Below, piece by piece: positions 10,763-28,479 of a stretch of DNA of 38,508 bases. The notes under the pieces were generated by a model. It searched no databases and had not been told where the DNA came from. It saw nothing but the letters and a program-made list of their open reading frames with translations. The position numbers were made by a program, and so were the translations under genes. Origin of the DNA: Bacteroidota bacterium (GTDB lineage Bacteria; Bacteroidota; Ignavibacteria; Ignavibacteriales; Ignavibacteriaceae); contig JAKAGZ010000025.1 in assembly GCA_021815365.1 (NCBI GenBank), forward strand, positions 1 to 38,508, read 5' to 3'. Position 1 is the first letter of the stretch; every line of letters starts with the position of its first letter.

Positions 10763-10786
10763 ACTCCTGGAAAATTGGGAGTTTTT
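10763..10786 (+). terminator. Bidirectional terminator shared by tRNA-Thr and PAP2 gene
   Basis: ACTCCT (10763-10768) pairs with GGGAGT (10777-10782) over an 8-nt loop, followed by TTTTT on the + strand. On the minus strand the same hairpin is followed by GGGTTTTTGAG. It can end the tRNA transcript from the left and the PAP2 transcript from the right, whose stop codon lies at 10785-10787 directly beside it. Confidence 0.7.
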
Positions 10787-11714
10787 AAAAATTAAAAGAT
10801 AATCGCATTCCTATATTATTGAATCCCAATAAAGGCGATAAATTTAATTTTAGTTTGTCGGCTTCTGTTCCCTGTTCGTGCGAATTGTTTTGAAGAGGAG
10901 CAATTATATTTCCAAAAGTGTATCCCAGAAAAAATCCCATAGGAAGATCACTGTACCAGTGCATCCCCCTGCTGACAAGACCAATACCGGTTAATACAAT
11001 TAAAGAATAACCAACAGGCTTTATCCATTTCTCTTCGGGAAAATTATTTGCTATCACTGTAACAGTAGCAGTTAGCGTAGTAATGTGTCCCGATGGATAA
11101 GCATAATATTTCGGCTGATGTTTTTGATACTCAATTAAATTTGGAAAAAACTTCCAGTTACCCGCATATTCTGTAGCAGCCGCAGGACTTTCTCTTCCGA
11201 AAACCCTCTTTAATAATTGAACACTGATGCCGCTTGCTATTACCACTTCAACAATGTTGCTCGCAGTTTTTAATGCCCTCTGATTATGATCTACTAAACC
11301 CAAAACCGCAAATGCACCAGCCAATGCGAAATGATATTGCGCCTCACCAAGCGAAACGCCAAAATTACTCAAGCTGTGAAAGACAGGGGAATTATCGAAC
11401 AGACGTCTGTTAGCATGCCATCCTGGTTCATCAAAAAGCATAAGCGCTCCTGTGCCGGCTGTGAGGGCTGCGAACAGTGGTATTTTATCTGCACTAAATG
11501 CTGCTGCAGGATAAGTTGAAATATCGTGAGGAACATTGGTAATCATTTTATACCAGGTAAGCTCACTGCCTGGTTTAATATCTTCGTGCAAAACAGATTT
11601 AACAATCGCCTTTGACGAATCAATAAAATAACCCGAGCTGTCCTTTGGCGTTTGAGCAAAAGCTGCAGCGAAGCTGAGAATTGTAAATGACGATACTAAT
11701 AATTTAAATTTCAT
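10785..11714 (-). CDS. PAP2-superfamily protein, exported, variant active site (paralog 1)
   Basis: The 309-residue protein has a signal peptide ending AAFA-Q (residues 1-20) and a PAP2/type 2 phosphatidic-acid-phosphatase core. Motif 1 is K169-x6-S176-P177 where the family normally has K-x6-R-P. Motif 2 is intact (Y-P207-S-G-H210). Motif 3 keeps His252 and Asp256 (HWYSD), but the canonical Ser-Arg pair seven residues before the His reads Gly-Leu; an SR pair stands nearer, at 248-249. The family normally removes phosphate from lipids or lipid carriers at the membrane. With these changes activity is uncertain. The protein ends in strand-like LSPLLGFNNIGMRLSFNF with a terminal Phe, reminiscent of outer-membrane barrel ends. 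It lies 42 bp downstream of its paralog. Confidence 0.8.
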   Translation of the reverse strand: MKFKLLVSSFTILSFAAAFAQTPKDSSGYFIDSSKAIVKSVLHEDIKPGSELTWYKMITNVPHDISTYPAAAFSADKIPLFAALTAGTGALMLFDEPGWHANRRLFDNSPVFHSLSNFGVSLGEAQYHFALAGAFAVLGLVDHNQRALKTASNIVEVVIASGISVQLLKRVFGRESPAAATEYAGNWKFFPNLIEYQKHQPKYYAYPSGHITTLTATVTVIANNFPEEKWIKPVGYSLIVLTGIGLVSRGMHWYSDLPMGFFLGYTFGNIIAPLQNNSHEQGTEADKLKLNLSPLLGFNNIGMRLSFNF

Positions 11715-11756
11715 CAGCCTTCGTCATTACTTCGCAAAAAAATATCATTAGTCCTC

Positions 11757-12728
11757 TTAAAATTTTAATTGAAGAGACAGCCCTGTTCCCGTGAAACTAT
11801 AATAAGGCATAATATTAAAAGCGACACGATCTTTTTCAGAATCAGAGTTATAATTTTCAGGATGAGAAACAATTTTCCCGAATTCATAACCAAGAAAAAT
11901 AGCCAGCGGGTAATCACTATACCAGTGAATTCCGTTATTGACCATACCTAAAGCCATCAAAGTAGAAAGAGTATAACCCACAGGTTTTACCCATTTCCAT
12001 TCAGGATAATTTTCAGAAATTACAATTATCATTCCAAGCATAGTTGTAAGATGCCCCGAAGGATAAGCATCGTAAGCGGGCACGCGGCGATGATAAGCCA
12101 GAGGACTAGGAAAAAATTTCCATTCACCTGCAGGCTGAGTCGAAACAATAGGGCTTTCTCTACCAGTTAAATGCTTTAGCACCTGAACGAACGCACCGGA
12201 AGAAATTGTAACCTGCAGAATCTGGCTGCCTGTACGGATAGCTCTTTCATCTTTAAATAATAATCCCCAGCCTACAAAAATTCCTGTGAGAGCAAATTGA
12301 GTTCTGCCATCACCCATTTCACCAAACCTGTCGCTTGCCTGACGCAGAAAGTTAGAACTTTTATACCACCCATGCTGCAAAAGCCAGGTATGATTATCAG
12401 TCGCCATAAAGAATGCCGTTGAAGCAGCAATGCTAAAGTAAACTGAAAAGCTGGTGTGGGTTGCTATATCATAAAATCTTACATAGTCTTTGGGAATATT
12501 TGTCAGCCAGGAGTGCCAGGTGATTTTATTTTCCTGTTCAGGGAAACCGGGTTTTGCAGCAAGGCTCTGCTGAAAGTCAAAGTCAGATGAATCAGGTTCA
12601 GTTCTATTCAGCATCTCTTTAATGTTAAAAAAAGTGCTGTCAGTTTCTGATTCAGTTTTAAAAATCTTCTGAGAGAAAACGCTGACAGAAAAGGTACTGA
12701 CAAAAAAGAAAAATAATAATTTATTCAT
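11757..12728 (-). CDS. PAP2-superfamily protein, exported, variant active site (paralog 2)
   Basis: The 323-residue protein has a signal peptide (residues 1-19, ending SVFS-Q) and is clearly a tandem paralog of the 10785-11714 product. Both share a conserved TNxPxD region, GRESP, WKFFP, YPSGH, GIHWYSD/GMHWYSD and FLGYxFG. Motif 1 is K185-x6-S192-P193 (Arg to Ser). Motif 2 is P223-S-G-H226. Motif 3 has His268 and Asp272, but where paralog 1 has Ser-Arg this copy has Asn264-Asn265. The C terminus again ends in an amphipathic strand with terminal Phe (LSLQLKF). It is the first gene of the two-gene unit. Lipid or undecaprenyl-phosphate phosphatase activity is a family expectation, not shown. Confidence 0.8.
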   Translation of the reverse strand: MNKLLFFFFVSTFSVSVFSQKIFKTESETDSTFFNIKEMLNRTEPDSSDFDFQQSLAAKPGFPEQENKITWHSWLTNIPKDYVRFYDIATHTSFSVYFSIAASTAFFMATDNHTWLLQHGWYKSSNFLRQASDRFGEMGDGRTQFALTGIFVGWGLLFKDERAIRTGSQILQVTISSGAFVQVLKHLTGRESPIVSTQPAGEWKFFPSPLAYHRRVPAYDAYPSGHLTTMLGMIIVISENYPEWKWVKPVGYTLSTLMALGMVNNGIHWYSDYPLAIFLGYEFGKIVSHPENYNSDSEKDRVAFNIMPYYSFTGTGLSLQLKF

Positions 12729-24625: not shown

Positions 24626-24988
24626 ATGAGAAAGATGATGAAATATGCTGCTTTTATTTTTGCAGTTGCTTTAATAGGTATGACAGCAAGAGTAAATGCT
24701 CAGGCAATAAATGATAACGATTTATTAGAAGTAGCTTCAGGAGTAAACGTTAACATTCAACATACCGATTTAGGAAATGTAGATATAAAATCGGCAGCAG
24801 TTAATGATATAAATGCAAAGACTGCACTGGGAAAATTAAGCTCAGTCAATGCAGATAAAAATGGAATAGAAGGATTAGTAACGGAAGGTCCCGAAGGATT
24901 GAATGAAGGTAAAGCCGAAGGTCCGGATCTTGACGGTCCGGGCGGTTCAACTCACCAGTTCAATGGCGAAGAGACCGGTCAGCACTAG
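24626..24988 (+). CDS. Small secreted acidic protein, unknown function
   Basis: The 120-residue protein has a signal peptide (residues 1-25, ending RVNA-Q). The mature region (95 residues) is Asn/Asp/Val-rich (ASGVNVNIQHTDLGNVDIKSAAVNDINAKTALGKL) and ends in a flexible acidic Gly/Pro/Glu tail (GPEGLNEGKAEGPDLDGPGG...). There are no cysteines in the mature part and no recognised domain. Strong ribosome binding suggests an abundant product, such as a surface or matrix component or a secreted substrate of the neighbouring outer-membrane proteins; this is inference. It lies downstream of the receiver gene and upstream of the barrel-TPR gene. I do not recognise the family. Confidence 0.75.
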   Translation: MRKMMKYAAFIFAVALIGMTARVNAQAINDNDLLEVASGVNVNIQHTDLGNVDIKSAAVNDINAKTALGKLSSVNADKNGIEGLVTEGPEGLNEGKAEGPDLDGPGGSTHQFNGEETGQH

Positions 24989-25076: not shown

Positions 25077-26408
25077 ATGATGATAAAAAAATCAAGAATA
25101 ATAATCCTGTTTCTCATTATTTCATTTCCAGTATTCGGGCAAAATAATGAAATTATCCAGAACGATAACAGCTTCTTAAATCGCTTCGGGTATAAAATAT
25201 CACTTTATAGCTTGAGTAAATTTGATTCTAACATTTTAAGGCTTACCTCAGGCAGCTCTGATTTATCAACTTCTGTATATCCTTCGGTAACTTTAGCGTA
25301 TCCGTTTTCAGCAAAGACTAAAATTACTGCACAGTATTTGTTTGGACTGGAAAAATATATCTCGACTACTTTTCTAAATACAAATTACAACAGAGTCGGA
25401 TTAAAATTAGATCATTACTTTCTGCCGATACTTAATGGACAGATCTATGGTTTTTATTTACACTCTAATCAACCGGATATATTAACTATAAGCCCTTCGA
25501 TTTACAGGTTTGCCACATTCGATCAGTATTCTGGTGCAGTAAAATTAAACTTGCTGAACAGCAACAATAATCTCTACAGCCTGGAATATTCATTAATCAA
25601 AAGGAACTATTCTCATCTTCTTACCCTTACGCTGGTAAAGCAGCAGGATATTACAAATTACGTTGCTCTTGGCTTTACTCATAAATTCAGCATTTACGAT
25701 CTCGCATATTTAAAGCTGGGTTTTATCAACAACAGCTCAAATAATTTTAATTACGATTACAAAAGACAATTCATCGATATTTTTTTTAGTCATAAATTCT
25801 ATCCTGAGTTTGAGCTTCAGTTTGAAGACCTGTTAAGCACATTAAATTTCAGTGGAAGAAAAATATTCCTCGATCCGAATACAACACGGAGCGATATTAT
25901 AAATACATTTATGATAGGATTAAAGAAAAAACTTACAGACAATATTTCCCTCAACCTGAATTATTATTTACAAAAAGATTTTTCTAACGACCAAAACAGG
26001 AAATTTCTCTCTAACTCTTTCCAGTTAGGCTTGTCAATGTCCTTTGGAAAAGACGCAAGCTATTCCCGAAGGGATGGATCCCCAGAAGACCAGAATTATT
26101 ACGACCAGCAGGACATTACAAACAGCCTTGAGATGAATAAGGAAATAATAACAGCCGAACGATATACAAACACAGGCTATCAATACCTTTTGAAAGCAAA
26201 TTATGACAAAGCCCTGGAATACAGCTTAAAAGCTATTGCATTGAAAAATAACATTGAGCAAGCTCATATAAATGCCGGCATAGCTTATTATAAATTGGGC
26301 AGGCACAGAGATGCAGTTGCAGAATGGGAAATTGCCTTAAAACTAAATCCCAAAAATATTAAGCTTAGTGCCTTAATTGAAAAAGCAAGGTCAGAACTAA
26401 ACTATTAG
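25077..26408 (+). CDS. Outer-membrane beta-barrel protein with C-terminal TPR repeats
   Basis: The 443-residue protein has a signal peptide (residues 1-22, ending FPVFG-Q). Residues about 30-335 show alternating Tyr/Phe/Leu strands separated by short turns, suggesting a barrel (e.g. KLNLLNSNNNLYSLEYSLIK, NISLNLNYYLQKD, FQLGLSMSFG). After a linker (SYSRRDGSPEDQNYYDQQD), residues 358-443 form two TPR units: YLLKANYDKALEYSLKAIAL and GIAYYKLGRHRDAVAEWEIAL, each ending in Asn/Pro-type turns. In synthase-dependent exopolysaccharide porins (PgaA, BcsC, AlgK/E) a TPR region is coupled to an OM barrel but precedes it; here the order is reversed. The last 30 bp of the gene belong to a 162-bp direct repeat. 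A small hairpin TCCCG/CGGGA lies upstream near 25030-25044. Confidence 0.72.
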   Translation: MMIKKSRIIILFLIISFPVFGQNNEIIQNDNSFLNRFGYKISLYSLSKFDSNILRLTSGSSDLSTSVYPSVTLAYPFSAKTKITAQYLFGLEKYISTTFLNTNYNRVGLKLDHYFLPILNGQIYGFYLHSNQPDILTISPSIYRFATFDQYSGAVKLNLLNSNNNLYSLEYSLIKRNYSHLLTLTLVKQQDITNYVALGFTHKFSIYDLAYLKLGFINNSSNNFNYDYKRQFIDIFFSHKFYPEFELQFEDLLSTLNFSGRKIFLDPNTTRSDIINTFMIGLKKKLTDNISLNLNYYLQKDFSNDQNRKFLSNSFQLGLSMSFGKDASYSRRDGSPEDQNYYDQQDITNSLEMNKEIITAERYTNTGYQYLLKANYDKALEYSLKAIALKNNIEQAHINAGIAYYKLGRHRDAVAEWEIALKLNPKNIKLSALIEKARSELNY

Positions 26409-26540
26409 TACTGTTCCTCTTCGCTGCTTTTATACGAATAAGCAGCGGAACATTAACTCTATAAATTGCAGTCGTGCATTGTGACTCACGGGGCGAAGCT
26501 GAGTTCAAGATAATGCAACTATAAAATCAACTGATTATTT
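26379..26540 (+). repeat. 162-bp direct repeat, copy 1
   Basis: This stretch covers the last 30 bp of the barrel-TPR gene and 132 bp behind it. It matches 28319-28479 at about 143 of 162 positions with one 1-nt gap. It includes an 8-bp hairpin CGCTGCTT/AAGCAGCG (26422-26447) that is decayed in copy 2. It also has a 48-bp core (26483-26530) that is identical in both copies and contains an ACTCA/TGAGT stem. Confidence 0.85.
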
Positions 26541-26728
26541 CCTTTGTTATTATTTTTCGAATTGAATTTTATTCGACTAAGGTCAGAATATGAATATAAG
26601 AATTCGGTTTGCGTCTAAATCTTTTTTTGACAATGTTCGAATTAACAATTTATTGAATTATAAAATGATAAAACGTTATAGTACAATAATTGTGGATAAA
26701 TTTTAGAAAACATTAAAAAGGCATAATT
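26541..26728. other. Leader region of the T9SS-protein gene
   Basis: Together with copy 1 of the direct repeat, this makes a 320-bp gene-free stretch after the barrel-TPR gene. It is strongly A/T-rich. A 38-codon ATG frame at 26590-26706 has no ribosome-binding site and a low-complexity product, so I do not call it. TTGACA at 26629-26634 exists but no well-spaced -10 follows. AAAAGG about 10 nt before the ATG may serve as the binding site. Confidence 0.4.
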
Positions 26729-28258
26729 ATGAAAAAATTTTTGTTACTAGTCGTTTTTTTATTCCTTCCTTTGGGTATTTCATACAGCCAGGTAAGTAAC
26801 CTTATATTTTGGGGGCAGACCGGCAATTTCAGCAGAGCTTCGGGTGATACTGTAAGCTGGAGCTATAATGTGCCAAACCCGGGAGACACTACATTAATAG
26901 AATTCTGGATTGATGCTGATGGCAGTGGAACAATCAATACGGGCGATGTACTTTGGAATTATTTTATACAGATTGACGGAGACAGTGTTGGCAGTAATGG
27001 TCCTCCCGATATTGATGGCAAGGCTAATGGATCGGTCTCTTTCAAACAAAAAGTTGGATTAGCACCAGGCAAATATGTTGCCTTATTTAAGAATCATGGT
27101 TTCTACACGACAAGGGCTGGGGTGGTTACTGCACTTGTTTCACCAACTTTTACAATATCCGGTCACATAACAGTTCCTACCGGATATAGTTCGCAAAACA
27201 TTGTATTAGATCTTCTTCAGTTCAAACACGGTCGGATGTTCTGGACTGCACTTACAGATGCAAGCGGCAATTTTACAATTTCCATGGACTCAGATACTTC
27301 AGGTAATCCGTGGGGACTTATAATTGACAACGGGTTCATCTTTGGAGCTTCTGTTATTTCGCCGGATAGGATTATGCTGACACTAGACAAAGGAGTAAAA
27401 ACATCCTATACAGGGAATAATTTTACAGTTACTTCTGCTGATGCCGAAATAAGCGGTACATTAAGAGGAGAGGACGGAAATCCATTTGTCAACGCTGATG
27501 CATATCTGACTAACGGTGGTAGTTTAAACAGATATACTAAGACTGATACGGCCGGAGTATTTCATTTAGGATTGCTTACAAGTGAATTACCACAGACAAA
27601 TTTGAGCCTTGGCTCAGGCGATATGCAAGATACAACGATTGTATCAGCTACTTACCGCTTTGCGAATGTAACTTCCGGAAATAAACTGACTCATGATCTT
27701 ACTATTTTTAAAGTTAATTCTACTATAACGGGTCAGGTAACTTTTGATAATAACCCGGGTGGTCCGGGATTTCCATTATGGGCTGAAAATTCTGATACCG
27801 GACAAGTTCAAACATTTACAGGCAGCAACGGGAATTTCAAATTTTATGTAAGCAATAAAATTTTTAATTACAAGATACAGGTTAACATACCTCAGGGATA
27901 CAGTTATAATGGAGTAACGGCTCACGCAGGCGACACAAATGTGAAGGTTAACCTGACGACAACTGATGTAAAACAAATAAGCTCTGATATTCCAAAGGCT
28001 TTTGCTTTATTACAGAATTTCCCGAATCCGTTTAATCCTGCAACACAGATTCAATATGATATTCCCAAAACCTCTTATGTTCATTTGGTTGTTTACAACC
28101 TGTTGGGACAGCAGGTCAAAGAACTGGTTAGCAGCCAGCAAGCTCCGGGAAAATATTCTGTGACCTTCGATGGAGCTGGCTTTTCAAGCGGAATATATAT
28201 CTATAGTATTCAGGCAGGAAGTTTTGCCCAAAGTAAAAAATTAATTTTGCTGAAATAA
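26729..28258 (+). CDS. Secreted protein with T9SS (Por) C-terminal sorting domain
   Basis: The 509-residue protein has a signal peptide (residues 1-20, ending ISYS-Q). About 25-140 is a beta-rich domain (GDTVSWSYNVPNPGDTTLIEFWIDADGSG). Three carboxypeptidase-regulatory-like beta-sandwich units follow (TFTISGHITVP..., DAEISGTLRGEDGNPFVNADAYLT..., STITGQVTFDNNPGG...), each with the pattern of a modifiable extracellular Ig-like fold. Residues about 421-509 are a type A sorting domain: ALLQNFPNPFNPATQIQYDIP, VYNLLGQQVKEL, GIYIYSIQAG and a final KKLILLK. Such proteins cross the outer membrane by the type IX system and are anchored to the surface or released. No enzymatic domain is seen, so a structural or adhesive role is plausible. 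The gene and its terminator sit exactly between two direct repeats. Confidence 0.88.
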   Translation: MKKFLLLVVFLFLPLGISYSQVSNLIFWGQTGNFSRASGDTVSWSYNVPNPGDTTLIEFWIDADGSGTINTGDVLWNYFIQIDGDSVGSNGPPDIDGKANGSVSFKQKVGLAPGKYVALFKNHGFYTTRAGVVTALVSPTFTISGHITVPTGYSSQNIVLDLLQFKHGRMFWTALTDASGNFTISMDSDTSGNPWGLIIDNGFIFGASVISPDRIMLTLDKGVKTSYTGNNFTVTSADAEISGTLRGEDGNPFVNADAYLTNGGSLNRYTKTDTAGVFHLGLLTSELPQTNLSLGSGDMQDTTIVSATYRFANVTSGNKLTHDLTIFKVNSTITGQVTFDNNPGGPGFPLWAENSDTGQVQTFTGSNGNFKFYVSNKIFNYKIQVNIPQGYSYNGVTAHAGDTNVKVNLTTTDVKQISSDIPKAFALLQNFPNPFNPATQIQYDIPKTSYVHLVVYNLLGQQVKELVSSQQAPGKYSVTFDGAGFSSGIYIYSIQAGSFAQSKKLILLK

Positions 28259-28283
28259 CCTGTAACCAGATGATTATAAAATT

Positions 28284-28314
28284 AAAAAGTGCCCCGCTTA
28301 TCGGGGCACTTTTT
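28284..28314 (+). terminator. Strong intrinsic terminator
   Basis: AAAAAGTGCCCCG (28284-28296) and CGGGGCACTTTTT (28302-28314) form a perfect 13-bp stem with a CTTAT loop and a T-tract. It lies 26 bp after the stop of the T9SS-protein gene and just before the second direct repeat, so it insulates that gene from the glycosyltransferase. Confidence 0.92.
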
Positions 28315-28318
28315 AATA

Positions 28319-28479
28319 GAAAAAACAAGGTCAGAATTAAACTAATAGTACCGTTCCACTCCGCTGCATCTATACGAATAAGCAGTAAAACATTAACTCT
28401 ATAGAGTGCAGTGTACATCGAGACTCACGGGGCGAAGCTGAGTTCAAGATAATGCAACTATAAAATCAATTAATTATTT
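28319..28479 (+). repeat. 162-bp direct repeat, copy 2
   Basis: This is the counterpart of 26379-26540. It begins with a non-coding relic of the end of the barrel-TPR gene (matching its last 30 bp with three changes). The 48-bp identical core lies at 28422-28469, 45 bp before the predicted glycosyltransferase start. The CGCTGC hairpin is degraded here, while the core is untouched. Confidence 0.85.

Follow-up and report, generated by a model that had tools for sequence, protein, structure and literature searches.

A T9SS cargo gene between two direct repeats

The window, that is, the whole stretch of 38,508 nucleotides of contig JAKAGZ010000025.1 analysed here, belongs to a member of the Ignavibacteriaceae. 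At the locus under study, two direct repeats bracket a gene for a cargo protein of the type IX secretion system (T9SS), which lies between a gene encoding a tetratricopeptide (TPR) protein and a gene encoding a glycosyltransferase fused to a polysaccharide deacetylase (Table 1). The segment between the repeats (26541-28312) holds the T9SS cargo gene and its terminator-like hairpin and nothing else. The surface-protein gene that a sequence-only reading of this DNA had placed there, with a terminator of its own, is a real one, and its product ends in a sorting domain of T9SS type A (PF18962, E=1e-8; TIGR04183 above cut-off). The same reading had described the upstream gene as a barrel-TPR gene; the TPR part is borne out by PF07719, whereas the Pfam search of this gene gave no barrel family. 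The upstream neighbour of the TPR gene, orf120 (24626-24988), encodes a 120-aa protein with no Pfam match, and the two form a conserved unit which is also present in two relatives, G003 and G030.

Table 1. Coordinates of the genes, repeats and motif copies of the locus, in window positions
Feature	Position	Strand	Basis or remark
Upstream gene, 443 aa, C-terminal TPR (PF07719)	25077..26408	+	Pfam
Left repeat	26373..26540	+	Last ~36 bp of the TPR gene and downstream leader; unique to the locus in the genome
Motif copy 1, TGTGACTCACGGGGCGAAGCTGAG	26480..26503	+	Candidate ops-like UpxY loading site; 0 mismatches to the pattern
T9SS cargo gene, 509 aa, CarboxypepD_reg-like and C-terminal sorting domain	26729..28258	+	PF13620, PF18962, TIGR04183
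Terminator-like hairpin of the T9SS gene, AAAAAGTGCCCCGCTTATCGGGGCACTTTTT	28284..28314	+	Abuts the right repeat; read in the sequence
Right repeat	28313..28479	+	Relic of the TPR gene end and leader, immediately 5' of the glycosyltransferase/deacetylase gene
Motif copy 2, CGAGACTCACGGGGCGAAGCTGAG	28419..28442	+	Core unchanged; 2 mismatches to the pattern
Glycosyltransferase family 4 and polysaccharide deacetylase fusion, 597 aa	28515..30308	+	PF13439, PF01522

The repeats, previously put at 162 bp and 88% identity, align over 168 columns at 88.1% identity (20 differences; one 1-bp indel), and the similarity of both falls abruptly to chance at either edge. As had been read from the letters, the TPR gene truly ends within the left repeat (...KARSELNY*), and the right one contains a relic which still reads ...KTRSELN* but lies outside any gene. 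The motif described below is spanned by a 48-bp stretch, the longest over which the two repeats are identical; with the 20 differences placed at random, a difference-free run of this length has a probability of P=0.015. A 47-base core of the repeat occurs twice in the window versus 0 occurrences expected by chance. In a search of the whole 3.09-Mb genome the full-length repeat was found in two copies only, both at this locus, and a dispersed element of full repeat length was rejected on this count; none of the 58 relatives searched, which do not include the genus of the host, carries it. Hairpins are closed in the left repeat and degraded in the right one, and the single-sequence folds of the repeats are ordinary (z from -0.5 to -1.7). 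A structured RNA was rejected, there being no credible Rfam match and no unusual fold z-score.

Such a layout calls to mind a removable cassette, whereby the T9SS gene would be lost and regained via recombination between the repeats, giving rise to phase-like surface variation, and the motif inside the repeats would be incidental. Direct repeats of 168 bp and 88% identity that contain a 48-bp perfect stretch suffice in principle for RecA recombination; the bracketed segment is a complete gene unit, and relatives of the T9SS gene are scattered. The possible product of such an exchange is a single leader with the TPR gene rejoined to the glycosyltransferase gene. Against this, no empty site was seen among the relatives compared (none being of the same genus), the segment lacks a recombinase, homologous recombination being the sole possible agent, and both the conserved motif and its association with upxY genes would be unaccounted for. 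The earlier description of the segment as removable and prone to phase-like loss is therefore not upheld, and the removable cassette is regarded here as quite improbable. Constant presence of the segment together with absence of the repeats from all relatives, or genome-wide dispersal of the repeat as an ordinary element, had been named as findings that would speak against it. This is borne out by half: the 58 relatives searched lack the full repeat, while its short core is dispersed. Since the repeats carry a conserved candidate signal for UpxY, they appear to be more than the scars of a cassette.

An oriented intergenic motif associated with upxY genes

Short matches to the repeats in the own genome and in relatives all fell on one part of the query, and there they delineate a sharp motif in otherwise unrelated flanks. 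The motif, TGTGACT[C/G]AC-NN-GGCGAAGCTGTG, is oriented and intergenic, and the logo derived from 68 sites reads T-GTGACT[C/G]AC-NN-GGCG[A/G]AGCTG-T-[G/A]. Copy 2 of the window is altered at two upstream positions that are otherwise conserved, namely logo positions -1 and 1, at which T is found in 96% and 93% of the sites. When no more than one mismatch is allowed, 23 of 59 genomes contain the pattern GTGACTCACNNGGCGAAGCTG and 0 contain the reversed-pattern control. Across a scan of 84,980 species, one 23-base form of the motif gave 24 exact matches, all of them in Bacteroidota as judged by record titles (Ignavibacteria and Gracilimonas included), and no Bacteroides record.

Transposon ends were rejected as an identity for the motif because the sites are mostly single, oriented and in unrelated flanks; nor was there a sign of a transposon or IS-type insertion at the locus, the repeats being direct and confined to it and no recombinase lying inside the segment. 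As a separate observation, genome G049 carries 48 copies of a motif-like 22-mer, TGGGACTCACCAGGCGAAGCTC, in a lineage-specific and mostly non-coding repeat; these copies are clustered, with a spacing of mostly ~0.5-0.7 kb, on contigs C1, C17, C29, C35 and C157 (loci L192-L196), and HEPN/nucleotidyltransferase and toxin-antitoxin-like genes lie between some of them.

At 58 of 59 sites the first ORF downstream shares the strand of the motif; the median distance to this ORF is 118 bp. The strand arrangement is (+,+) in 33 cases, (-,+) in 17, (+,-) in 4 and (-,-) in 0. According to Pfam, the downstream proteins (n=54) include UDP-sugar dehydrogenases (7), NusG (5), SLBB/export proteins (4) and asparagine synthases (4), as well as epimerases and an aminotransferase, and the upstream ones (n=52) NusG (5), GDP-mannose dehydratases (4) and DegT proteins (3). 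Polysaccharide genes and genes for UpxY are frequent among these neighbours. The NusG neighbours tested, together with the paralogue of the own genome, score above the NCBIfam cut-off for UpxY. The own genome encodes one UpxY-family gene (L170:8294-8854), on a different contig and beside a UDP-glucose dehydrogenase-like gene, and two of its four motif sites precede non-polysaccharide genes, namely a sugar-catabolism-like operon and a DUF6544 gene. Incidentally, the own site G000:C28:23026 (L171:9027) precedes a 2-hydroxyacid dehydrogenase gene and genes that appear to encode a GntR regulator and sugar catabolism, which is not what a leader of the polysaccharide type would usually serve.

The association with upxY recurs in an independent family, where 19 sites (at most two mismatches) were found in 18 of 61 genomes versus 0 for the control; upon comparison of coordinates, an upxY gene lies within 600 bp and on the same strand at 16 of these 19 sites, 15 of the 16 being just downstream of it. 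For the 59 genomes around the window, scores served to assign NusG proteins to the paralogue class. At least ~36 of the 49 genomes with a paralogue-class NusG (G049 being left out of the 36) have a site with up to two mismatches, versus 0 of the 10 without, a co-occurrence with P about 1e-5 by a statistic that ignores phylogeny. In G014 no NusG was found, probably owing to incompleteness of the genome, and three sites with three mismatches are present.

The motif is a Bacteroidota-wide signal which probably loads UpxY, a relative of NusG, onto RNA polymerase. It might otherwise be bound by a conventional DNA-binding protein that regulates surface-polysaccharide genes, as its being short, oriented and 5' of genes would allow. 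This I consider unlikely, though somewhat less so than the cassette, for the motif is not palindromic, its sites flank upxY genes and vanish along with the paralogue, and its last 12 bases retain the pause flanks of the enterobacterial ops element.

Likeness to known loading elements

The closest parallel is the ops/JUMPstart element read by RfaH in Enterobacteria, which is likewise a short oriented element in the leaders of polysaccharide and surface operons, with a NusG paralogue encoded in the genome and sites unlinked to its gene. The last 12 bases of the motif, GGCGAAGCTGTG, resemble ops12, GGCGGTAGCGTG, in length, in the GGCG start and in the GTG end, but the central bases differ, 7 of 12 bases being shared. 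The reader would be UpxY rather than RfaH, and the difference in the centre is what a different reader would lead one to expect; unlike ops, moreover, the motif has a conserved upstream half, TGTGACTSAC. The Rfam JUMPstart model (RF01707) gave no match at the gathering score, nor any up to E=10.

In the ops element of E. coli, TG at positions 11-12 induces pausing, the loop is closed by a C3:G8 pair and specificity stems from the central bases (PMC5995543). In the same numbering (PMC5995543), the consensus keeps the pause flanks, with GG at positions 1-2 and TG at 11-12. The window copies have AG at positions 11-12, A replacing T at position 11 (for instance, the 12-mer of copy 1 is GGCGAAGCTGAG), and this change in both, together with the two further changes of copy 2, makes their activity uncertain. 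The GC-GAA-GC stretch of the motif could pair as a small hairpin in the non-template DNA; for the 10-mer no stable fold is predicted.

A second parallel concerns UpxY and the 5' leaders of Bacteroides capsule operons, reportedly described by Chatzidaki-Livanis in 2009. The protein family (NF033644), the polysaccharide context and antitermination in leaders are common to both, whereas in Bacteroides upxY is locus-specific and has UpxZ partners, and here a genome typically encodes a single paralogue and contains one to four sites, which are unlinked. UpxY has been reported to bridge to upstream duplex DNA (Saba et al. 2024, as relayed in PMC12691694); the conserved upstream half TGTGACTSAC would fit such a contact. 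LoaP, too, is a specialised NusG paralogue loaded in a leader, yet it reads an RNA hairpin (PMC12691694), whereas the isolated motif here has no RNA fold beyond chance.

Along these lines, I infer transcription across the site, recruitment and antitermination as follows: RNA polymerase would pause on crossing TGTGACTSAC-NN-GGCGAAGCTGTG, UpxY would read the 12-mer exposed in the non-template strand, probably along with the duplex upstream of it, and it would then remain on the polymerase, suppressing premature termination in the downstream unit. A simple search for Bacteroidota-type promoters gave weak matches only, and none was identified 5' of either copy.

Proposed duplication of a leader and history of the locus

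The explanation favoured here, and held to be fairly probable, is that the repeats are two copies of one leader, which carries a UpxY loading site akin to ops/JUMPstart and was duplicated on either side of a T9SS gene that had been inserted. Likewise inferred are the succession of events and the function of copy 2: the leader would originally have separated the TPR gene from the glycosyltransferase/deacetylase gene, the complete T9SS unit (26541-28312), with its own terminator, would have been inserted there, and the ~168 bp of leader would have been duplicated by that event or by one linked to it, so that both the T9SS and the glycosyltransferase units came to follow a leader copy. Without a second copy, the new T9SS terminator would sever the glycosyltransferase gene from the element, and the right repeat would restore it. 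The motif copies lie 227 bp before the T9SS gene and 74 bp before the glycosyltransferase/deacetylase gene, and the latter is the position where such an element belongs. RfaH of E. coli has been described as rather inefficient versus intrinsic terminators (PMC7819879); if UpxY were similarly weak, the glycosyltransferase gene would need an element of its own, which the right repeat would supply. Entry of the T9SS unit between the two genes, with duplication of the leader, is an economical reading, and it might have come about by template switching or by unequal exchange. Of the insertion or partial duplication envisaged by the sequence-only reading, insertion into an older TPR/glycosyltransferase arrangement, with duplication of the leader, fits the anatomy of the locus. 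The repeats do not look like inert scars, for they contain a UpxY-associated element which that reading had missed.

Full-length relatives of the T9SS protein (46-51% identity) are encoded in G014, G040, G042 and G044, all in unrelated contexts, and because they sit in such unrelated places, insertion of the gene into a TPR-leader-glycosyltransferase order fits; no good match to the motif was found near them. The TPR orthologues of G003 and G030 retain orf120 upstream, and the genes downstream vary, being PAP2 genes or a different T9SS gene. The glycosyltransferase/deacetylase gene has a sporadic distribution in the order, being present in 6 of 58 relatives. Its recurrent neighbours are PAP2 phosphatase genes, often, and PepSY or RND genes, all of which have counterparts of their kind in the window. 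No good motif match was found upstream of its orthologues in relatives, which makes the link with the element lineage-specific. An old TPR-glycosyltransferase order in the family is not supported, the orthologues of each gene being followed by other genes.

Alternatively, the order TPR-leader-T9SS-glycosyltransferase might be the older one, the leader alone having later been copied into the gap between the T9SS and glycosyltransferase genes, whereby the latter gene would have gained an element for itself. The intact state of the left copy (coding end, full motif, closed hairpins), as opposed to the degraded hairpins of the right one, would agree with this, as would the T9SS-cargo gene of another kind that adjoins the TPR gene downstream in G030. 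A separate and targeted copying event would nevertheless be required, and, within the stretches read, none of the four full-length T9SS relatives has a TPR or glycosyltransferase gene in its vicinity. Such copying of the leader is a tentative option, of lower probability than duplication around an inserted T9SS unit.

About half of Bacteroidota have divergent NusG paralogues, and how those encoded within operons, UpxY among them, are recruited was still described as unknown in 2020 (PMC7593976). There is perhaps an even chance that TGTGACTSAC-NN-GGCGAAGCTGTG represents an unreported, phylum-wide code of UpxY recruitment, serving trans-acting RfaH-like regulons to which leader duplications recruit surface genes. 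The proposed code would span Ignavibacteria to Cytophagales and Chitinophagaceae and concern small regulons outside Bacteroides. With a conserved candidate loading site, UpxY regulons could be predicted from sequence and tested with a single mutation, and a comparison with RfaH and ops becomes possible for a phylum whose cell surface is shaped by polysaccharides and T9SS cargo. The window illustrates how copying of a site may place a new surface-protein gene behind a candidate element.

Elsewhere in the window (10785-12728), two adjacent and mutually related genes, PAP2-phosphatase-like by eye, are related to genes found 3' of the TPR gene in G003 and G030. They lie upstream of the TPR gene here and downstream of it in those two genomes, which indicates that the neighbourhood has been rearranged.
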